The notes under the pieces are model-generated. The model was not told the DNA's origin. It was given only the letters and a program-made list of their open reading frames with translations, and ran no database searches. DNA of 63,804 nucleotides. Origin: a virus. The translations under genes and the position numbers were made by a program. Of this stretch, positions 8,951 through 60,718 are shown one piece after another. Numbering within the stretch: position 1 is the stretch's first letter; every line of letters begins with the position of its first letter. Location: the IMG/VR virus record IMGVR_UViG_3300043570_002464, positions 1-63,804 of that record. One strand, 5' to 3'.

Positions 8951-9862
8951 TTAGTTAAAATCTGCATTCTGTCTATTATGGCATGATGTTAGCATAGAGT
9001 CAATAGATGATGAGTTATATAATCTCAACTCGTCGGTCTTCTGATTATATCTGTAGAACTGACTTCCAGTCTTGTTGATTATTTCATTCATACGAATGAC
9101 ATCTTTCTGTTTTAGATTTCCCTTAACGTCATAATGGCGAGGCTCATCATATTCCACCACAATATTTCTCTTACAATCATACGCATCTAAATAATAACAC
9201 AAAATACGAGTCTCTCCACCATTCATGGCATGCGTTAGCTCCCATCCATTTTTTCTATTGAGTTCCTCAAAATAATCACATGCGATTGGATTATAGTTCG
9301 GTCTTGGTACGATTCCAAGTTTTTCTATTCTATCAAACATAGCGGACTTGGCTTTAACCGACAAAAGCCTGCGGGTTTCTTGTGTTATTTCTCTTGGATT
9401 TTCTAGTTGGGTCTTTGATATTTTTTCTCTAACTTCTTGCCGTTTCGCTGGATTTTTATCTCCCATCTTTGATATTGACAGTTTTTGTTTTGTTTTTTCG
9501 GAAAGTTTCTTACCTATGTTACTTTTTGATATTTTTTGCTTCACCGTGTCCGAAAGTGTTCTTCCCACCATCCATTTACCAACGCCATTTTTTAAGTTGG
9601 AGCGTCTTATTTTATCCTTGTGTTCATCCGACATTGGACCAAACACAATACCGTCTCTTGAGCATTTTCGGCACAACTGATTTTTCTTCGTTGATTTATT
9701 CAAGCACTTTTTATTTTTATAATGTATTGAGGTATTACACTTAGGGCAGTTTCTTTTCCACACTTGTTTCATATCTTCGCATTCTATCTTGTTTGATTCG
9801 TTCTCTGTTTCGTTGGTAATACAGTCTGTTGTCTCTTTGTTTGGCGAGTTTTTGTTGTTCAT
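8951..9862 (-). CDS. Homing endonuclease with NUMOD3-type repeats
   Basis: 303 residues from ATG 9862. An upstream in-frame ATG at 9925 exists, but the TATATTTAT motif lies inside that extension at 9897-9905, so the shorter start is preferred. A four-Cys zinc finger (CPKCN...CRKCS) is followed by several NUMOD3-like DNA-binding repeats (KIRRSNLKNG, KISKSNIGKKLSEKTK, KLSISKMG). The C-terminal 110 residues hold a nuclease-like domain with ETRILCYYLDAYD and NIVVEYDEPRHYD, resembling Vsr/EDxHD-type nucleases. It probably mobilises itself into homologous phage genomes. Confidence 0.75.
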   Translation of the reverse strand: MNNKNSPNKETTDCITNETENESNKIECEDMKQVWKRNCPKCNTSIHYKNKKCLNKSTKKNQLCRKCSRDGIVFGPMSDEHKDKIRRSNLKNGVGKWMVGRTLSDTVKQKISKSNIGKKLSEKTKQKLSISKMGDKNPAKRQEVREKISKTQLENPREITQETRRLLSVKAKSAMFDRIEKLGIVPRPNYNPIACDYFEELNRKNGWELTHAMNGGETRILCYYLDAYDCKRNIVVEYDEPRHYDVKGNLKQKDVIRMNEIINKTGSQFYRYNQKTDELRLYNSSSIDSMLTSCHNRQNADFN

Positions 9863-9896
9863 AGGTGATGTATTTTTTATTTCTTCCCATACATCA

Positions 9897-9905
9897 ATAA
9901 ATATA
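9897..9905 (-). promoter_or_regulatory. TATAYTTAT motif (putative late promoter element)
   Basis: TATATTTAT on the minus strand, 34 nt before ATG 9862 of the homing endonuclease. It argues against the longer start at 9925, which would place the motif inside the coding region. Confidence 0.35.
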
Positions 9906-9934
9906 AACCACTGAACATAAAACACTGAATATTT

Positions 9935-11952: not shown

Positions 11953-12047
11953 TAACAGCTTTGATATTCGCTTTCAGTTGTTGATAATATTAACCATGTT
12001 GATACACAGTATCAACCATGTTATCTAATATGTCAATCTATAACAAC

Positions 12048-12398
12048 TTACTTCCAAGGACCATCACCTTGAAATTTTATTCCCAACACCTCTTCAATAA
12101 AATTCCACGCGGCTTTTGTTTTGTTGTTGTTCATCAAGTTCAACAATTTGTCTTCTTGTTCTGGCGTAGCAACCTTGAAAAACTTAGCAATCTCCATGAC
12201 ACCAGCATTGTTGTCGTATATCAACTCAGTCAATGCTGGTGTTTCTTTTTTATTTTTCTTGCTTGTATCAAACGCACCAACAGTCCAACGACCAGTCATA
12301 TCACTTGTTATACCAGCATTTGGTTCAGTGATCTTTGATCCACCTTCATTCAACAATTGAATGGCTGAACAGAAATGGTCTATATGGTCGCTGTTCAT
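12048..12398 (-). CDS. Hypothetical protein
   Basis: 116 residues. The sequence is mixed polar with a helical central part (NNAGVMEIAKFFKVATPEQED) and ends DGPWK. No signal peptide or transmembrane segment. It lies 9 nt after the DUF5661-like gene and could be a structural or assembly protein by position. Confidence 0.5.
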   Translation of the reverse strand: MNSDHIDHFCSAIQLLNEGGSKITEPNAGITSDMTGRWTVGAFDTSKKNKKETPALTELIYDNNAGVMEIAKFFKVATPEQEDKLLNLMNNNKTKAAWNFIEEVLGIKFQGDGPWK

Positions 12399-12407
12399 TG
12401 TTTATTA

Positions 12408-13037
12408 TTATCTTCCCATGTGTGGAGTATCAATGTCTGGGTCATCTGGACCACCACGTTCGTCGCCTTGTGGCTTGATTTTCTTTGCGCCACCGTAATT
12501 TGGTTTGAATGGAGCGTCGGCATCATCATCACCATAGTCTCCGTTTGGATTATCCACGCCAGCCATGTTTGCAAACTTTTTGTATTTGTATTGATACTGA
12601 CCAGTTTCTTTTACTATCATACCGCAATAATGATCAAGTGGATCAGCATTTCCAGACATGGTTGGAGTTTTGCCCACGACAATTTTATTTGCACCGACTT
12701 TTGCTTTTTCGGAAGGTGCTTTGATATTGGATGTTTTCAGTGGTGTTGCAATTCCACCTTTTCCCAATCCAGAACTGTTCAATGAAGTTTGACCAACTGG
12801 TTCGGCAGATACTTGAATAATTGCAACCGATGGTATATCATATCCACATTCATCCATACCCGATTCAAGCGGTGTCATTGCGCCTTCTTGCTCAAGACCG
12901 GCTTTATTCAGTTTGGTATAATAATGATGATCGTCCTTGAGATGGTCCATGGCAATTTTACGTGCCAATGCATCATCTTTTGTATGCTCATGTTCATGTT
13001 TTGTTCCCAGTTCAATTTCTTTTGGATCTATGCTCAT
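12408..13037 (-). CDS. DUF5661-like phage protein, low-complexity C-terminus
   Basis: 209 residues. The N-terminal 45 residues follow the pattern E-x-x-x-G-x-x-x-E-x-x-H-T...A-x-x-I-A-x-D-H-L...Y-Y-T-x-L (DPKEIELGTKHEHEHTK, DHLKDDHHYYTKL), which I associate with DUF5661, a short helical domain common in large phages. The rest is low-complexity, rich in Gly, Pro and Asp. A related motif closes the 692-residue gene next door, so both may dock on the same partner, perhaps in the virion. That is inference. Confidence 0.6.
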   Translation of the reverse strand: MSIDPKEIELGTKHEHEHTKDDALARKIAMDHLKDDHHYYTKLNKAGLEQEGAMTPLESGMDECGYDIPSVAIIQVSAEPVGQTSLNSSGLGKGGIATPLKTSNIKAPSEKAKVGANKIVVGKTPTMSGNADPLDHYCGMIVKETGQYQYKYKKFANMAGVDNPNGDYGDDDADAPFKPNYGGAKKIKPQGDERGGPDDPDIDTPHMGR

Positions 13038-13056
13038 AGTGTGTATTTCTTGTTTG

Positions 13057-15135
13057 TTAAATTTTATCCGATTGAAAGTACATTTCCAAGTCGCTATAAT
13101 ATTTTGGATTTTTGTGAAGATTTTTCAATACTGTTGGTTTGGCTACATCTTTGTCTGGATATTCCATTCGTTTCATTTCATAACGCAGTCCAGTAAGAAT
13201 TTCATCTTTGCTAAAGTTTGGATCTATCAAATCATCGTCTGTGAGAGTATCATATAATGGACTACCAATAACAGTATTGCCCTGAGTATATGTATATTTG
13301 CGTTGGGCTGGATAGTTTTGTAAGCGGCGTGATGTTTGATTGCTAGAGAATGTACCTGCCCAATTGTTTGCTGCGACACCTCCGCCAGCCATTGCTCCAC
13401 CACCATAGCCACCGGATTGACCAACATAATATTCTTTCATTGGTACAGCATGATTCAGTTCTCTAATGCCGTTGCTATACATAAATGTCTCAAACATAAC
13501 TTTCATACCTTCAAATGTTTTATTACCAACATATTCATTACATGTTCCTTTTTTGACATATGCCAGAGTGACATGAGGATTGTATTGTGGCCATTTATAG
13601 TTGTTGTCAAAGTTCTTGCGAATCATTTCATGTATCTTGCTCAAATGAGGACTTTTCACTTCAATCTTCAATACATCATATGGAGCATCTGCGTTAGAAA
13701 ACTTACTGATTTTTCCCAGTTCTGCCACAATCTTTTTTGGTACTTTATTCAATAGTTCTTTGACTCTGTTTTCTTCTATTGGACTCAAGCCATACATAAC
13801 TGTGACATGTGGGTTGGCTTCTTTGCCATAATTTTCACCAACTTCTTCATATACACATTCATTTGGAATCTTCTTGATGAACTCAAGCATAGATTCTTTT
13901 TGTGGCATATCAGCCATAATACAATGACCTTCGGTAATCAGGTCTGTATAAAAACTGTAGTATTGTGGTATTTTATCCATATTGTTCTCTTTTTGTATAA
14001 ATATCTCACTTACCTCGCCTTTCATGGCTTTTTGTATGTCTTCTTTTGAAAATTTTGTTGGATTGTTATTGCAGTAAAAACCACGACTAACTTCCTTTGG
14101 TGCACCAGTCAATGAAGTTAGTTGATTGTATCTGCAAATAAAATCACCATCAACTTTTACCGGCGATCCAACAAGTGAAGTTAGTTGATTGTGATTGCAG
14201 TAAAAACTACCACCAACTTTTACCGGCGCTCCAACAAGTGAAGTTAGTTGATTGTTATTGCAGTAAAAACCACGACTAACTTCCTTTGGTGCACCAGTCA
14301 ATGAAGTTAGTTGATTGTGATTGCAGTAAAAACTACCACCAACTTTTACCGGCGCTCCAACAAGTGAAGTTAGTTGATTGATATCGCAAACAAAACTACC
14401 ACCAACTTCAATTTTTGAAAAATCAAAAATGTCTGTTATCTTTTTTAAGTTTTTATTTCTGATATTCACGTCGCCCTTTATAACATCGCCAACTATTCGG
14501 CTTTGCATGTCTTTACTAAAATTTTTTTGAAGTAGTTTATTTTTTTCTTCGGATGATATAGTTTTGTTTGAAATTTCTTCTAAACTTACGTTGAAAATTT
14601 TTAATATTTTTGAAAATTTTATAAACCCATCTTCTTCATCAAATGATTGATTGTGACACATTTCTTTTGCATCTTTTTGATTCTTTTTATCATAAAAAAT
14701 AGCATATTTTGATTTATTTATTTTGTCTATGAAATATACCAAAGTATAGTAGCCAAAGTAATTATTAAATTGATTTTCGGCTGGGTCTGAATATGTTGTA
14801 CACCATTTTGTGTTGGCACCATATTTTAATGATGCTGCCATAGAAAGCGGCTCAACAATCATCATTTTTTCATTATCAATTATGATGTTTGCTTCACTGG
14901 TTTTGATACTCTTTTCAACTTCTTTACCAGACTTTGTTTCCAACGCCGATGTTAAATCTTTTAACGAAGCATACTTGAATATATCTTTAATAGTTAATCT
15001 AGATTGTTGTTTAGTAAAACGATCAAATATATTTTTGAGTTGTTCATCAGGCACATTCTCTTTATATTTGGCTTTGAACATTTCAAAGTTTTTAGCAGTG
15101 GCAGCTATTTCGTATAGTTTTATATGATTAACCAT
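13057..15135 (-). CDS. Chimeric protein: N-terminal domain, 21-residue LRR-like repeats, 2H phosphoesterase, DUF5661-like tail
   Basis: 692 residues with four regions. Residues 1-240 carry GANTKWCTTY near 106, a segment I have seen in phage proteins of unknown role. Residues 245-362 hold five complete and one partial 21-residue repeats (GGSFYCNHNQLTSL plus GAPVKV). Residues about 440-530 contain two H-V-T motifs, NPHVTVMYGL (His443) and NPHVTLAYV (His521), the signature of 2H phosphoesterases, which hydrolyse 2'-5' or cyclic phosphodiester bonds in RNA or dinucleotides. The last 60 residues end KNLHKNPKYYSDLEMY, like the DUF5661-like domain of the next gene. Met386 could be an ancestral start of the 2H part. 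Confidence 0.8.
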   Translation of the reverse strand: MVNHIKLYEIAATAKNFEMFKAKYKENVPDEQLKNIFDRFTKQQSRLTIKDIFKYASLKDLTSALETKSGKEVEKSIKTSEANIIIDNEKMMIVEPLSMAASLKYGANTKWCTTYSDPAENQFNNYFGYYTLVYFIDKINKSKYAIFYDKKNQKDAKEMCHNQSFDEEDGFIKFSKILKIFNVSLEEISNKTISSEEKNKLLQKNFSKDMQSRIVGDVIKGDVNIRNKNLKKITDIFDFSKIEVGGSFVCDINQLTSLVGAPVKVGGSFYCNHNQLTSLTGAPKEVSRGFYCNNNQLTSLVGAPVKVGGSFYCNHNQLTSLVGSPVKVDGDFICRYNQLTSLTGAPKEVSRGFYCNNNPTKFSKEDIQKAMKGEVSEIFIQKENNMDKIPQYYSFYTDLITEGHCIMADMPQKESMLEFIKKIPNECVYEEVGENYGKEANPHVTVMYGLSPIEENRVKELLNKVPKKIVAELGKISKFSNADAPYDVLKIEVKSPHLSKIHEMIRKNFDNNYKWPQYNPHVTLAYVKKGTCNEYVGNKTFEGMKVMFETFMYSNGIRELNHAVPMKEYYVGQSGGYGGGAMAGGGVAANNWAGTFSSNQTSRRLQNYPAQRKYTYTQGNTVIGSPLYDTLTDDDLIDPNFSKDEILTGLRYEMKRMEYPDKDVAKPTVLKNLHKNPKYYSDLEMYFQSDKI
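14050..14403 (-). repeat. 63-bp tandem coding repeat (five full copies plus one partial)
   Basis: The repeats encode the 21-residue LRR-like units of the 692-residue protein. Copies alternate between two subtypes, one with GAPKEVSRG and one with GAPVKVGGS, and several are nearly identical at the DNA level. This suggests recent unequal recombination or slippage within the gene. Confidence 0.85.
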
Positions 15136-15463
15136 TTAGTAATCCTTTTTTAGTTTCATTGATAGATGTTCTGTCACCCATTCTGGCTTTGAGCATTTTC
15201 AAAATTGATTTTGGATCGCGACCATTGAAATTTACACCAAGTATACCACGCTTTGAGCAATAATCTTGTAGTTCTTGCATATCAGCATTATTATAATCTG
15301 GAATACTTGGATTCATTTCAAATGGTCTGTCTTCTTGTTGTTTCTGATGACCAAATGAACGACCACGCAACAATGATTGTATGTCAGCACTACTTACAGA
15401 GTCATTACTATGACCTCTTGTCATCATTGCTGATATATTCATTGTTGTATATTGCTCGTTCAT
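15128..15463 (-). CDS. Hypothetical protein with SAP/HeH-like C-terminus
   Basis: 111 residues. The first 70 are polar and probably flexible. Residues 72-102 (ELQDYCSKRGILGVNFNG, then DPKSILKMLKARMG) resemble a helix-extension-helix fold related to SAP motifs, which bind nucleic acids or proteins. It overlaps the start of the chimeric 2H gene by 8 nt. Function unknown. Confidence 0.5.
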   Translation of the reverse strand: MNEQYTTMNISAMMTRGHSNDSVSSADIQSLLRGRSFGHQKQQEDRPFEMNPSIPDYNNADMQELQDYCSKRGILGVNFNGRDPKSILKMLKARMGDRTSINETKKGLLNG

Positions 15464-15470
15464 ATACGAT

Positions 15471-15998
15471 TTATACCAATCCTTTCAATAATTGGCTTAC
15501 CCAAATTTGTTTTTTGTGATCGACCACTGACCTCATTTTTCCTTGTTCCATATCATATGTTTCAACTTTCACTGTTACAATACGGTCATCTTTTCCAAAT
15601 CTCTTTTGAATTGGGAGCATTTCAAGAACTGTGCTTACATATACCCACGTAATATTTCCGAAACTATGAATATCCTTGCCAACATATTTGTCACCAACTT
15701 TTACATCAATATATGATGGATTTATTGCCGGTTCATTCGCGGCAATTTCATTCATTTCATTGTCATCCACGATTACATCAGTGATATTGATTTTTGAATC
15801 GTTGTGTGTTTTCCAAAATTCTTCTATTGCCTTGATTTGTGCGTCATGATCATTGGCTGCTTTTACATTGATGTCTATATCGCCGTTGTTACGACGATCA
15901 TATATATCCACAAATCTTATATTGATTTTGTATTCATGCCCTCCAGTGACTTCTTCAATAACTTCTCTTATCAATGCTTTTAGTTCAGATTTTTTCAT
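15471..15998 (-). CDS. Leader-motif protein (MKKSELKALIREVIEE family)
   Basis: 175 residues. The first 16 residues, MKKSELKALIREVIEE, are nearly identical to those of two neighbouring genes and of the gene at 60467, whereas the remaining sequence is unrelated. The body is alpha/beta with a C-terminal segment GKDDRIVTVKVETYDMEQGK that looks like a small beta barrel. It overlaps the next gene by 4 nt. A shared amphipathic N-terminal helix on different bodies suggests a targeting or docking tag, for example capsid packaging as with T4 internal proteins. Confidence 0.6.
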   Translation of the reverse strand: MKKSELKALIREVIEEVTGGHEYKINIRFVDIYDRRNNGDIDINVKAANDHDAQIKAIEEFWKTHNDSKINITDVIVDDNEMNEIAANEPAINPSYIDVKVGDKYVGKDIHSFGNITWVYVSTVLEMLPIQKRFGKDDRIVTVKVETYDMEQGKMRSVVDHKKQIWVSQLLKGLV

Positions 15999-16474
15999 AA
16001 ATTTTTATCCAGTGATACACCAAATTTATTTTCTCCCTTGGCGTCAATCTCAAGCCGAGAACCATCTTTGAATGTTATAACTATATATCCTCCACCCGCT
16101 ATAAATGCCGAAGATACAGTTTTTCCTTTTATTAGAGATAAACGTTGGTCTATTGGCTGATTGGTATTTGTTAGTGACTCTTCAATCACTTCTTTGATCA
16201 ATGCTTTTAGTTCTGATTTTTTCATAGATTCTTTTATATTTTTCTTGCTCATATAACTAATGGCGTCGAGCAAAACATTCATTATTATTGTAAGTCTTTC
16301 TTTGGTAATTTTACTCTCTTCCGGAAAATGTTGCGCACTGTGCCAATCTTTTAGCTCATTTGTGTATAAATTGAGACCCAGATTCCAAAACTCATCTTGA
16401 CCATATTCGGTCTTGTATAGTTTGATTCTGCGAACAAACTCATCAACAAGTTTTGAAATGTCTTCATTTTTCAT
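15995..16474 (-). CDS. Hypothetical protein with an internal leader motif
   Basis: 159 residues. The first 83 residues are a helical domain (LVDEFVRRIKLYKTEYGQDEF). At residue 84 the sequence MKKSELKALIKEVIEE begins, identical to the start of neighbouring proteins, followed by a small beta-rich domain (AGGGYIVITFKDGSRLEID). Either the second half was once a separate gene with its own ATG near 16225 and is now fused, or that ATG is used as an internal start. No Shine-Dalgarno is visible there. Confidence 0.55.
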   Translation of the reverse strand: MKNEDISKLVDEFVRRIKLYKTEYGQDEFWNLGLNLYTNELKDWHSAQHFPEESKITKERLTIIMNVLLDAISYMSKKNIKESMKKSELKALIKEVIEESLTNTNQPIDQRLSLIKGKTVSSAFIAGGGYIVITFKDGSRLEIDAKGENKFGVSLDKNL

Positions 16475-16475
16475 T

Positions 16476-16646
16476 TTACGATTGTTGATTGAGAAATTTT
16501 CTCATTGCATACAACGCCGCCAATCCTTTATCATTTGGATTTTTTCTTAATTCCGTTTCCAATTTTTTTTCATCTGCAATCTTTCGCATATTGGAAACTT
16601 CTTCCACGGCTTCTTTGATCAATGCTTTTAGTTCTGATTTTTTCAT
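16476..16646 (-). CDS. Small leader-motif protein
   Basis: 56 residues from ATG 16646 to TAA 16476. It starts MKKSELKALIKEAVEEV and continues as a charged helix ending MRKFLNQQS. It is the shortest member of the leader-motif set. The stop lies 2 nt before the next start. The TATATTTAT motif is 15 nt upstream of its ATG and could drive the three leader genes as one unit. Confidence 0.6.
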   Translation of the reverse strand: MKKSELKALIKEAVEEVSNMRKIADEKKLETELRKNPNDKGLAALYAMRKFLNQQS

Positions 16647-16661
16647 ATATATGCTACTACT

Positions 16662-16670
16662 ATAAATATA
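16662..16670 (-). promoter_or_regulatory. TATAYTTAT motif (putative late promoter element)
   Basis: TATATTTAT on the minus strand 15 nt before ATG 16646, at the head of the three-gene leader-motif cluster. Confidence 0.4.
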
Positions 16671-16705
16671 ACGACATCACAGAATGAAGTCAATATATAT
16701 ACTTT

Positions 16706-17701
16706 TTATGCAGCCTTTCGTTTTATCCAAGCAATTTTCATATTGTCTCTAGTTTCTTGTGATTTGGGCCTGCCGCTCATAGCAATTGATAATTTCAGTT
16801 TTGTTTCTTTAGAATGTCCATGTTTGTTCGGTCCCCGTATTTTCCCAGATTGCCGGATAGATACATCTCGCTTGACTTCTTCTGACCGTATTTTTCCCGT
16901 ATTTCCAATTGATATTTTATGCTTCGATTCTTCCGAATGTGGAGTACCAATTTTTCCATATTTCCATCCAATAGGCAATTCAGCCGTTCCTTTTACAAAT
17001 TTATTGGAAATTCCGTCGGTTATCCATCTTCTACCAAAGCATGGGTTTTTTTCACCATCATACATTCCTTTATTGGAAATGGACATTTTCATTCGCGTTT
17101 CTATTGATACATTCCGGTTTGATAGTTTCCTCTTCGTTTCTTCGGATACAATCCTCCCAATATTCCCAAGCCGAATTTTTTCCTTGGTCTCTATTGATTT
17201 TGGTCCATATTTCTTTCCAGTCAAAGATTTACGCATCCTCTCCACCGTTTCCGCCGTCCGCTTCCTTCCCGTCTGCCAAGCCGACATTTTTCGCTTGGTT
17301 TCCTCCGAATGTTTTCTTCCTTTGAATGAAATTCCGACACCACCGCCTTCTGCGATATTGTACCCATTTTTTACAGAATCATATTTTCGTATCCAATACA
17401 TCTCTCTATAATCCATCGTCCAACTTACTGTCGGCATATCTTCTATTATTATCCTATCAAAATCATCATAACCGTATTTCAACAATGCGTGATATATTTT
17501 TGTTTGATTTTTACACCGAACCATTTGGTAATCCCTCCACCGCTCAAATATATCGGTACTTTGACCTATATACCATTTACCCGTTGTTTTGCTGCGGAGT
17601 CCGTATATCCCGCTTACGATAGTAGGCTTCTCGTCCGGCTGCTCGTTCTTTTTCAACGCGCTTCCAATAACTCCGCATTCGGTATTCTCTGTTGCGTTCA
17701 T
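16706..17701 (-). CDS. GIY-YIG homing endonuclease with NUMOD3-type repeats
   Basis: 331 residues. The GIY-YIG core is at the N-terminus: GIYGLR near 32 and KWYIGQS near 43, with Arg (ERWRDY) and a later Glu as expected catalytic residues. Residues 125-320 contain about eight NUMOD3-like DNA-binding repeats (GRKHSEETKRKMSA, GIVSEET-type). It stands alone between the leader-motif genes and the metalloprotease, a typical free-standing homing endonuclease position. It shares the repeat type, but not the nuclease domain, with the gene at 8951. Confidence 0.88.
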   Translation of the reverse strand: MNATENTECGVIGSALKKNEQPDEKPTIVSGIYGLRSKTTGKWYIGQSTDIFERWRDYQMVRCKNQTKIYHALLKYGYDDFDRIIIEDMPTVSWTMDYREMYWIRKYDSVKNGYNIAEGGGVGISFKGRKHSEETKRKMSAWQTGRKRTAETVERMRKSLTGKKYGPKSIETKEKIRLGNIGRIVSEETKRKLSNRNVSIETRMKMSISNKGMYDGEKNPCFGRRWITDGISNKFVKGTAELPIGWKYGKIGTPHSEESKHKISIGNTGKIRSEEVKRDVSIRQSGKIRGPNKHGHSKETKLKLSIAMSGRPKSQETRDNMKIAWIKRKAA

Positions 17702-43713: not shown

Positions 43714-44829
43714 TTACTTCAATACTTGATATAGCAATTTTTTATAATCATCAGTGCCGATGGTCTTGCGGTCTAACATCTTAAAGATGATAGACGAGCG
43801 ACCCGTTGAACCATATGCTTGTAATACTTCCTTTGCGGCAATATTACGAGGAATGTTCATACGAGCAGATGCAAACTCAAACAATGCATTCATAATCTTG
43901 CGAACTTCTTTCATAGCATCGCAGATGCGCGAAGCATGTCCAGTTGCCATTGTAGCAATTTCAAAATCAAACTTCGTAGTTAGATATTCAAAGAATTCTA
44001 CATATCCAGTTGGTTCGTGTGATAATGTGTTACGTGGCATAAACCAATCAATATACACATCAATCATTTTATCTATACTAGAAATTTCACTTTTTGCACG
44101 ATGTAAAAAAAGATATGATGCGGCTTTTACTTTACGAATTTGTTGTTCGTTGTTATAATACACACACAAACCTTCTTGGTCTTTCAACACCTCAACTGCC
44201 GACTTCATTTCTTCAACGGAGTTGTAGGAGAAAGTGCGGGGACGGCGCAGCCCAATATCAGATGCAAAATAGTCCAATTGAGATTGTCGCATCAAGGAAT
44301 AATCATTGTGATTGATTACAGCAGTCAAAACCATGTCAGGTTCGTCGCCATAGTTCAATACAATGCGATTGGTTGGACTCAACCATTCTAGTACAAAAGA
44401 CTCATTGCTAGTTTCTAGCATTTCAAGATATGTAATGAACTTCTTGTACTTTTCACACAAATAGTCTATCTCATGTCCATTTGCTTGCTTATGAGCATCA
44501 ACAGTTCCGCGTGTGCGAATAACAGTGTGCCCCTTATAGCGAGAAAAGATTAAAGTAGAACCGTCCAACTTTTCCATCAACTTCGCATTTTTTAGATCGG
44601 AGGGTGCAGGAAAGATGTCTGGCTTTTCGTCCCAATTAAAGAACTTGGGAAAACTCAACGACACAGGATGTCCGTCTTTATTCCACAATGAAGAGCGATA
44701 AATGAGGTTTTCTTTATTCCAAGTTGCACCAATATGGATTGGTTGCACCAAAAAGCATTCATGCTCACCAACAAAGTGTTGATGAACCATAAAAGACTCT
44801 TTGTCGATAGATTGTAGGTCAATTTTCAC
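43714..44829 (-). CDS. RNA ligase, Rnl1-like (ATP-dependent)
   Basis: 371 residues, close to T4 Rnl1 (374). Motif I is EKLDGS at 86-91 with Lys87 as the adenylated lysine; RTRGTV near 106 follows, SFVLEWLSPTNRIVLNYG matches motif III/IIIa, EGLCVYYNN motif IV and RKVKAASYLFLH motif V. A helical C-terminal domain follows as in Rnl1. Rnl1 repairs tRNA anticodon breaks made by host defence nucleases. The start is GTG at 44829, 6 nt from the promoter. Confidence 0.88.
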   Translation of the reverse strand: MKIDLQSIDKESFMVHQHFVGEHECFLVQPIHIGATWNKENLIYRSSLWNKDGHPVSLSFPKFFNWDEKPDIFPAPSDLKNAKLMEKLDGSTLIFSRYKGHTVIRTRGTVDAHKQANGHEIDYLCEKYKKFITYLEMLETSNESFVLEWLSPTNRIVLNYGDEPDMVLTAVINHNDYSLMRQSQLDYFASDIGLRRPRTFSYNSVEEMKSAVEVLKDQEGLCVYYNNEQQIRKVKAASYLFLHRAKSEISSIDKMIDVYIDWFMPRNTLSHEPTGYVEFFEYLTTKFDFEIATMATGHASRICDAMKEVRKIMNALFEFASARMNIPRNIAAKEVLQAYGSTGRSSIIFKMLDRKTIGTDDYKKLLYQVLK

Positions 44830-50044: not shown

Positions 50045-50551
50045 ATGAAAAAACTCATTTATAAAGAAGGTAATCTATTGCTTGCTAAAGATGTTGTAGT
50101 AATTGGACATCAAGCAAATTGTCAAAATACATTTGGCAGTGGCATTGCTCGCACCATTCGAGAAATGTATCCTGATGCTTATGCTGTAGATACATTGTGT
50201 GCTTCAAAGAAATCAAACATTCTTGGTAATTTTAGCATGGCATATATTCCAGAGGAACAATCTAAGAAGCATAACACGCAAATCAAAAAGATTTTCAATC
50301 TATATGGTCAAAATCTATATGGTAAAGGCACAAGACAAACTAACTATGATGCATTATATAATGCCCTTGAAGGTATGTCTAAATATTTGACAGAAAATGA
50401 TATGGACCTTCCTGTTCCATCTGTTGGATTTCCATATCAAATGGGCAGTTTTCGCGGAGGTGGAAGCTGGGACATTGTTTCTAGACTCATTGAAGTAGCA
50501 TTTGATGATTATGCAAACGATGTAATGATATATCGCCTTGATATGAACTAA
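50045..50551 (+). CDS. Macro-domain protein (ADP-ribose derivative hydrolase-like)
   Basis: 168 residues. VVVIGHQANCQNTFGSGIA holds the macro-domain adenine/ribose loop (A-N-C...G-S-G-I-A), and VPSVGFPYQMGSFRGGGSW the second phosphate loop. The size is that of single macro domains such as ADP-ribose 1''-phosphatases. Such enzymes clear a by-product of tRNA splicing-type ligation or remove ADP-ribose from proteins or DNA. Single gene with its own terminator. Confidence 0.83.
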   Translation: MKKLIYKEGNLLLAKDVVVIGHQANCQNTFGSGIARTIREMYPDAYAVDTLCASKKSNILGNFSMAYIPEEQSKKHNTQIKKIFNLYGQNLYGKGTRQTNYDALYNALEGMSKYLTENDMDLPVPSVGFPYQMGSFRGGGSWDIVSRLIEVAFDDYANDVMIYRLDMN

Positions 50552-54044: not shown

Positions 54045-54899
54045 TTAGAATTTTGATTTACGAAATCTTTTTGCTGCTGGTGATATATATTTTTTAATAT
54101 CTGTTGTTGAGTTTGCTTTCAGAAATTCAATCATTTTTTGAAGCACTTGCATAAGCATTTTTACATCTTCTTTGGCATCATGCCAACCATCAACTTTGAC
54201 TCCCAACACTGCACCAAGTTTTCCAAGACTTGAACTATAACTTTTATATTTTGTCTTGGCAAGTAAACCATCCAATATAATTTTAACTTCTGGTATTGTT
54301 TCAAGTGCTTGCATTGCTGGTATAAAGAAAAATCGCGATATGTTTACTGTGTCTAATACCGGATATCTTTTTGTTGGCGGCAATCCATTTAATTTTCTAC
54401 GAGCCTCAATGAATTTCATATCAAATGTAGCATTGTGAGCAAGTATCACAACATTATCAAATTGACTCAAAAATTTTTCAAATTGAATCAATGCTTCTTT
54501 TTCATCCAACTTTTCTGCATTTGGATTTTCATAACCAGTCATTTTTAATGCATCTCTTGGGTGCAAGTCTGGCTTGCCATATTTTTTCAATCTTCTATTC
54601 ATTTCTTTATCCAACTGCTTTGCTTCTGTACTATTTGGATCATTCAATGCATTGTTCAAAGCGGAACCAATATTTACCTTTTTGGAAAACTCTCCAATTT
54701 CTTTTAGTGAAGAACCTTCATATGCAATTGCAGCAATATGTGTAAGTTGAATATATGAAGTGTTTGGTTCTAATCCAACAGTTTCTGTATCAAACAATAT
54801 CATTGTTTTTCCATCAAACTGTAGAAACTTATCTAATACTTCTTTTATAGAATAAGAGTATAGTTTGGCTTCTGCTAATATGTCTTTCAGTTTGATCAC
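54045..54899 (-). CDS. DEDDh 3'-5' exonuclease (DnaQ-like)
   Basis: 284 residues from GTG 54899. MILFDTETVGLEP (Exo I, D-x-E), VVILAHNATFDMKFIE (Exo II) and GWHDAKEDVKML (Exo III, H-D-A-x-x-D) are all present. The first 25 residues, MIKLKDILAEAKLYSYS, form a leader of the KLKDIL type seen on many phage proteins. An RNase T- or proofreading-like role is possible. A TATATTTAT motif lies 4 nt before the start. Confidence 0.87.
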   Translation of the reverse strand: MIKLKDILAEAKLYSYSIKEVLDKFLQFDGKTMILFDTETVGLEPNTSYIQLTHIAAIAYEGSSLKEIGEFSKKVNIGSALNNALNDPNSTEAKQLDKEMNRRLKKYGKPDLHPRDALKMTGYENPNAEKLDEKEALIQFEKFLSQFDNVVILAHNATFDMKFIEARRKLNGLPPTKRYPVLDTVNISRFFFIPAMQALETIPEVKIILDGLLAKTKYKSYSSSLGKLGAVLGVKVDGWHDAKEDVKMLMQVLQKMIEFLKANSTTDIKKYISPAAKRFRKSKF

Positions 54900-60466: not shown

Positions 60467-60718
60467 TTAATCTTTTTTATCACCAAACATCAGTTTGTTG
60501 GCAACAGCATCAATGTTGTGATATGCTTGACTGATAAGATCAATCATCCAAGGTTCCAACTTAACATCACTTGATTTCATTATTTCTAGCATTTTTTCAG
60601 ACTTTTGATTCAATCCATTCAACTGTGTAGTTGTCATTTGTTCTTGTTTTTCTGGATTAAGTTCTACTATTTCATCCATCACTTCTTTGATAAGATTTTT
60701 GAGTTCTGATTTCTTCAT
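60467..60718 (-). CDS. Leader-motif protein (MKKSELKNLIKEVMDE)
   Basis: 83 residues. The N-terminus MKKSELKNLIKEVMDEIVEL is the same leader as in the 15.5-16.6 kb genes, 44 kb away. The remainder is a helical protein without similarity to them (MLEIMKSSDVKLEPWMIDLI). It has a TATATTTAT motif 8 nt before the ATG. Role of the leader unknown. Confidence 0.65.
   Translation of the reverse strand: MKKSELKNLIKEVMDEIVELNPEKQEQMTTTQLNGLNQKSEKMLEIMKSSDVKLEPWMIDLISQAYHNIDAVANKLMFGDKKD

Follow-up and report, generated by a model that had tools for sequence, protein, structure and literature searches.

Acb1, found in T4 (57B) and Erwinia phage FBB1, is an anti-CBASS nuclease of the 2H phosphoesterase fold. 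Its catalytic tetrad H44/T46/H113/T115 and the residues that stack on the nucleobases have been described (PMC9117128). The LigT/ThpR RNA 2',3'-cyclic phosphodiesterases have the same fold and HxT motifs. T4 internal proteins carry a capsid-targeting sequence (PMC3012670, PMC9026906); the N-terminus of IPII and IPIII is MKTYQEFIAE, and N-termini of this type are capsid-targeting peptides that are cut by the prohead protease (PMC9026906, PMC5694885). Polyvalent proteins are multidomain phage proteins thought to be injected (Iyer et al. 2017, PMC5512222); they combine several disparate enzymatic domains and occur in a late or virion context, and 2H fusions to portal and MuF have been published among them (PMC5512222). 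The locus described here resembles each of these in part.

The window, meaning the whole stretch of DNA analysed, is an entire IMG/VR virus record of 63,804 bases. A single ORF on its minus strand, at 13057..15135, encodes 692 amino acids laid out as WC domain, LRR, 2H domain, glycine linker and DUF5661-like tail; all features given below for this locus are on the same strand. The WC domain (residues 1-215, 14491..15135) has the signature S..YGANTKWCT and belongs to PHROG 17056. It is followed by six LRR units of 21 residues, or 63 bp each (residues 243-368, 14032..14409), the last of which merges into a C-cap. Residues 386-403, MDKIPQYYSFYTDLITEG (13927..13980), correspond to the start of the standalone 2H protein of relatives and resemble the T4 capsid-targeting peptide. 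The 2H domain spans residues about 403-557 (13465..13929), with its first HxT motif, H443/T445, at 13801-13809 and the second, H521/T523, at 13567-13575. The constant C-terminal half consists of a glycine-rich linker, EYYVGQSGGYGGGAMAGG... (13240..13440), and a DUF5661-like helical tail (13057..13239). Thus every part that a preliminary description had assigned to this ORF was found. The "domain of unknown role" of that description is the WC domain, and PHROG 17056 is indeed a family of unknown function with no Pfam counterpart.

A separate DUF5661 gene (12408..13037; PF18905, 29 bits, cut-off 27) lies adjacent to the fused ORF. On the other side a gene for 111 amino acids without a Pfam match (15128..15463), a conserved upstream neighbour, overlaps the ORF start by 8 bp. 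Helicase, endonuclease and presumably dUTPase-like genes make up the neighbourhood, with no structural genes nearby. Like polyvalent proteins the window protein has 2H in a multidomain phage protein; unlike them it lies in non-structural surroundings and has one recognised enzymatic domain, the 2H.

Several other features of the region were seen in passing. Genes with unrelated bodies begin with a common peptide, MKKSELKxLIxEV, at 15471-15998, 15995-16474 and 60467-60718 of the window and at 4878-5694 of the relative L004. In the second of these the peptide begins at an internal Met (16225). Exact DNA matches place two copies at one locus in the window, one in the relative L003 and three in L004. 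The gene at 16706-17701, presumably a GIY-YIG-like endonuclease, is 99.7% identical in L004 and unmatched in L003, and an ORF at 50045-50551 is macro-domain-like (Pfam 13 bits vs a cut-off of 22).

The 2H domain is recognised from its two HxT pairs and by Pfam Acb1 (PF23474), which scored 36.3 bits against a cut-off of 27 and covers profile positions 33-113 of 144 only. Pfam 2_5_RNA_ligase2 (PF13563) also passed (32.9 bits, cut-off 27), and PHROG 755 matches the same part with E 2.3e-14. Both HxT motifs are invariant in all eight aligned homologues, among which no mutated His/Thr pair was found. In a 24-sequence alignment H58, H136 and T138 are invariant and T60 is present in at least 90%. Compared pairwise, the window, L003 and L004 give a dN/dS of 0.09-0.12 for the 2H-linker-tail and of 0.06-0.10 for the 2H core.

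An AlphaFold model of the protein was compared with known structures. The top Foldseek matches were a phosphodiesterase of phage BCSR5 (E 3.3e-7), Acb1 7t26 (9.5e-7) and a poxvirus cGAMP phosphodiesterase (2.9e-6); VIA-align gave Z 13.0 for Acb1 vs 12.5-14.2 for LigT, Usb1 and RNA-ligase-like 2H enzymes. The matches to the predicted model, with E values to 3e-7 and Z up to 14.2, are 2H enzymes, which identifies the fold as 2H, but the VIA-align ranking of the model cannot tell Acb1 from LigT. In a low-identity alignment Acb1 residues Y12, W74, F107 and the lid W147 fall on Y392, F479, W515 and M566, leaving three aromatics and no lid tryptophan. The resemblance to Acb1 therefore includes the fold, the HxT/HxT motifs, phage origin and a PF23474 score above cut-off. 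The differences are an identity of about 20%, the unconserved lid tryptophan, the added linker, tail and WC-LRR, and an activity that is predicted.

Intact HxT/HxT motifs together with Acb1-type affinity in Pfam and Foldseek make an anti-defence nucleotide phosphodiesterase plausible. The anti-defence role proposed in the preliminary description is upheld to that extent; other 2H enzymes fit structurally too. Against it, PADLOC gave no match. Another possibility is RNA repair, in which the 2H, as a 2',3'-cyclic phosphodiesterase, would mend broken tRNA or RNA ends to serve the phage's own RNA ligase, with no delivery and no anti-defence function. Such a role has been proposed for jumbo-phage 2H enzymes (PMC7824862). 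The window encodes an RNA ligase (43714..44829, minus strand, with PF09511 at 44092-44664) and nine tRNAs, a relative (G001) has both PF09511 and PF09414 ligases, and the 2H domain has structural ties to LigT-type enzymes. The presence of the ligase keeps RNA repair a live rival. The ligase, however, is about 30 kb from the 2H ORF and shares no operon with it. Moreover, Acb1 ranks above in Pfam and Foldseek, and NCBIfam 2_5_ligase (TIGR02258, the RNA 2',3'-cyclic phosphodiesterase equivalog) scored 23.7 bits, far under its cut-off of 65.7, which sets the window 2H apart from LigT/ThpR. RNA repair is on balance somewhat unlikely, and an Acb1-like enzyme is preferred.

The fused form of the gene is found in the window and not in its two close relatives. 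L003 and L004 have the same neighbours, and their proteins are 95-96% identical to that of the window over the 2H-linker-tail. In both, the 2H gene has a start codon of its own (protein start MDKIPAYY), and there is an 8-bp overlap with the 111-residue upstream gene. At exactly this ATG the window carries 1,155 additional bases (385 codons, 13981..15135), which encode the WC-LRR, are absent from L003 and L004, and have ATGG at both ends and intact flanks. A more distant syntenic outgroup, L105 (44-68% amino acid identity), also encodes the 2H-linker-tail alone. Among 17 related records the WC profile matched one, the window itself. The GC content of the WC part is 27.5% vs 36% for the contig. 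A standalone WC-LRR gene of 535 amino acids is present in L211/L212, adjoining a tail-sheath gene. Because L003, L004 and L105 have the 2H protein standing alone, the WC-LRR is an insertion and not an ancestral part. We read it as a recent add-on, probably a separate phage module joined in frame where the 2H gene starts; a benefit of the fusion is putative.

The preliminary description had instead suggested that the repeats give the enzyme its target recognition. The two parts do lie in one frame, and LRRs usually bind proteins. The WC-LRR is missing, however, from all three syntenic 2H-bearing relatives, is present in one of 17 records and exists as a free gene without 2H elsewhere. An ancestral LRR part of the 2H enzyme was rejected on its absence from L003, L004 and L105, and recognition by the repeats is highly improbable.

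The in-frame junction is known from one contig, and a degenerate search of IMG/VR for it elsewhere gave none. It could therefore be argued that the WC-LRR and 2H are two overlapping genes, made into a single ORF near the junction by a sequencing or assembly error or by a change of frame in the very recent past. Read in the alternative frame, the last codons of the insert reach the TAA at which the upstream gene of L003 and L004 stops, and neighbouring genes show an overlap of like kind. Against this, the 385 codons are free of stops, and the junction is clean at the 2H ATG and preceded by a plausible LRR C-cap. Such an artefact is possible, though on the improbable side. An SD-like site is missing from 62 of the 74 window ORFs and is therefore no guide to an internal ribosome site for the 2H; no Rfam family was matched within 12000-17000.

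The LRR part, whose units begin at residue 243, has a clear periodicity. Self-identity is 0.77 at a period of 63, 0.79 at 126 and 0.87 at 189; 1000 shuffles averaged 0.26 at period 63 and did not exceed 0.35. The 63-nt copies are 52-90% identical pairwise. Thus the repeats reported earlier are real, but the near-identity claimed for the 63-bp copies better suits a higher-order unit of 189 bp. Their LRR-like nature was borne out by a phmmer match to SspH1 (E 8e-4) and by VIA-align matches of the solenoid fold to the bacterial LRR proteins LIC12234 (Z 10.9), InlA (10.6) and IpaH9.8 (10.2); Pfam LRR_4 reached 13.5 bits on the window repeats against a cut-off of 27. Long tandem arrays of paralogous LRR genes were seen in three phage contigs, L005, L006 and L008 (records G003, G004 and G006), where the window protein has 29, 27 and 13 matches, respectively. 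They have the same 21-residue LRR type, with up to 68-72% amino acid identity; unlike the window protein they are LRR-only, with different N- and C-termini. A limited literature search found hardly any mention of LRR proteins of jumbo phages.

The WC domain is a family carried by viruses; its relatives number in the hundreds, and no Pfam entry was found for it. In IMG/VR, two profile scans gave 422 and 417 confirmed relatives, with the best 80 of each retained; a sequence scan of IMG/VR using the window protein alone found nothing. In 84,980 bacterial and archaeal genomes there were four pattern matches and none was confirmed. Fold comparison against the PDB, which barely covered this part, gave no WC match. 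Among 101 non-redundant WC ORFs the C-terminal partners included LHREDGPA-type repeats in three, LRR in one and long unassigned regions, and the L211/L212 architecture is the only one with at least three LRR units. In the two virion-context loci examined, the WC gene has a head-tail adaptor as its neighbour in L021 and a tail sheath in L211. WC was also seen joined to DUF5872 in L079, L081 and L082 (PF19197 in L079), and two cyanophage DUF5661 proteins (L265, L266) have a segment that, judged by eye, looks similar.

A search with the tail gave an unexpected finding that is worth following. Seventeen loci were found, 16 of which carry the linker-tail, and a 2H head is present in five of these: L004 (L246), L003 (L247), L105 (L258), L155 (L261) and L260. 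The linker-tail of the other 11 is 75-77% identical to that of the window over 127 amino acids. This constant part runs from residue 566, and identity breaks at EYYVGQSGG. Upstream of it the 11 have unrelated heads, of four residues (L254-L257), 13 residues (MKKSQLKQLIKEV, in L248), 75 residues (L249, L252, L253 and L259) or 240 residues (L250 and L251). The 11 do not count as independent events, since near-copies from different samples are among the contigs several times. The linker-tail is thus the constant part of the locus and the N-terminal heads are exchanged. A 2H profile found the enzyme in one of 12 searched contigs, L260. A 2H is present in each of the distant members (L258, L260 and L261), so the enzyme would most simply be ancestral at the locus and have been lost in the 75-77% clade. 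An acetyltransferase-like assignment of the 240-residue head was dropped; it came from a motif, and Pfam gave only a weak SH3-like row. In L248 the MKKSELKxLIxEV peptide is fused directly to the constant tail.

In 10 of the 16 relatives the tail is fused to the DUF5661 gene, as judged from the N- and C-termini, with PF18905 confirmed in L249, L250 and L255; the two are separate in the window. PF18905 itself gave no match to the window tail at E<=1. Profile-profile alignment (hhalign) of the tail with the adjacent true DUF5661 gene gave 85% probability over 45 columns. The name "DUF5661-like" is kept because the tail fails PF18905 yet aligns with the neighbour's domain; the earlier assignment holds as a likeness, not as membership of the Pfam family. 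A literature search for "DUF5661" found no mention. NUMOD3-containing endonuclease-like genes occur at 8951-9925 of the window and at 6963-7739 of L004; the L004 copy lies between the 2H and DUF5661 genes, so the locus takes up other inserts too.

DUF5661 lies in terminase/capsid clusters in three of four annotated phages examined, the exception being Caulobacter phage Cr30. This, together with the persistence of head-less versions, fits a purely structural role, in which the linker-tail would be a minor component of the virion or of a scaffold, with the heads as decoration. A virion role, which the preliminary description raised in this purely structural form as an argument against its own proposal, is thus hinted at. 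The invariant catalytic residues and purifying selection oppose a purely structural one, which is very unlikely.

A different link to the virion comes from the N-termini of 2H proteins. A motif fixed from the N-terminus of T4 IPII and IPIII is present in 9 of 26 short 2H proteins, compared with 4 of the 259 remaining genes of those loci (Fisher p 6e-8, uncorrected for relatedness), the nine forming about five sequence clusters. Rows with shared first 20 residues and the window clade were left out of this count. The test was not blind, because the 2H N-termini had been seen before the motif was fixed. The motif was found in none of 24 long 2H proteins, 4 of 52 WC proteins and none of 20 LRR proteins. 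Targeting of WC (4/52 vs 7/278) and LRR proteins (0/20) by such a motif was weakened as a candidate. A looser motif was non-discriminating because it is also raised in other genes (78/571). Outside the count, the N-terminal peptide of L003 and L004 fits the motif; the full motif is unmatched in L105, L155 and L260, each of which has hydrophobic-hydrophobic-x-E. A targeting sequence of the T4 type is an N-terminal peptide with hydrophobic-x-E ahead of the mature protein; the similar peptide of the window (residues 394-402) lies inside the ORF and so not at an N-terminus, and the motif matches one of the 74 window ORFs, which is not the fused one. Among the long 2H proteins are fusions to portal and MuF proteins (L142, L164, L151). 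Another N-terminus that looks like a targeting tag, MIKLKDILxEA, is common to genes at 54045-54899 of the window and 334-996 of L021, which we take to be a likely exonuclease and a likely lysozyme.

Virion delivery of the 2H protein is, on this evidence from genes, a supported guess. As in the T4 internal proteins, a constant part is combined with varied cargo, and short 2H relatives have a matching N-terminal peptide. Unlike them, the constant part is a C-terminal tail, the peptide is internal in the window, and packaging is putative. The non-structural neighbourhood of the window ORF counts against delivery.

The account we favour, tentatively and at slightly less than even confidence, is that a constant tail bears an Acb1-like 2H as its cargo, possibly for delivery with the virion, and that a WC-LRR was recently added. 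The glycine linker and the DUF5661-like helical tail make up a C-terminal half that stays constant, and the N-terminal cargo is exchangeable. In this phage the cargo is predicted to be an active Acb1-like 2H phosphoesterase. The enzyme would cleave cyclic-oligonucleotide alarm signals through the acid-base chemistry of HxT/HxT. The tail, with the short N-terminal peptide in relatives, may position it inside or on the surface of the particle or of a phage complex for early action, and the WC-LRR would be a separate phage module, not an ancestral recognition domain of the enzyme. A bolder and decidedly unlikely version treats the locus as a cargo cassette. The linker-tail would then be a virion-loading or anchoring module on which large phages swap payloads (2H, other heads, WC-LRR), providing pre-packaged counter-defence at injection; the parallel is with T4 internal proteins, except that the address would be C-terminal. 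In the window, cleavage of the ORF by the prohead protease at ITE|G could give WC-LRR and 2H-tail as two injected products.

If the tail does load cargo, the sequences joined to it would amount to an inventory of uncharacterised phage payloads, for which sequence searches would suffice. In addition, anti-CBASS enzymes could then be tested for delivery with the particle, as opposed to synthesis after infection.
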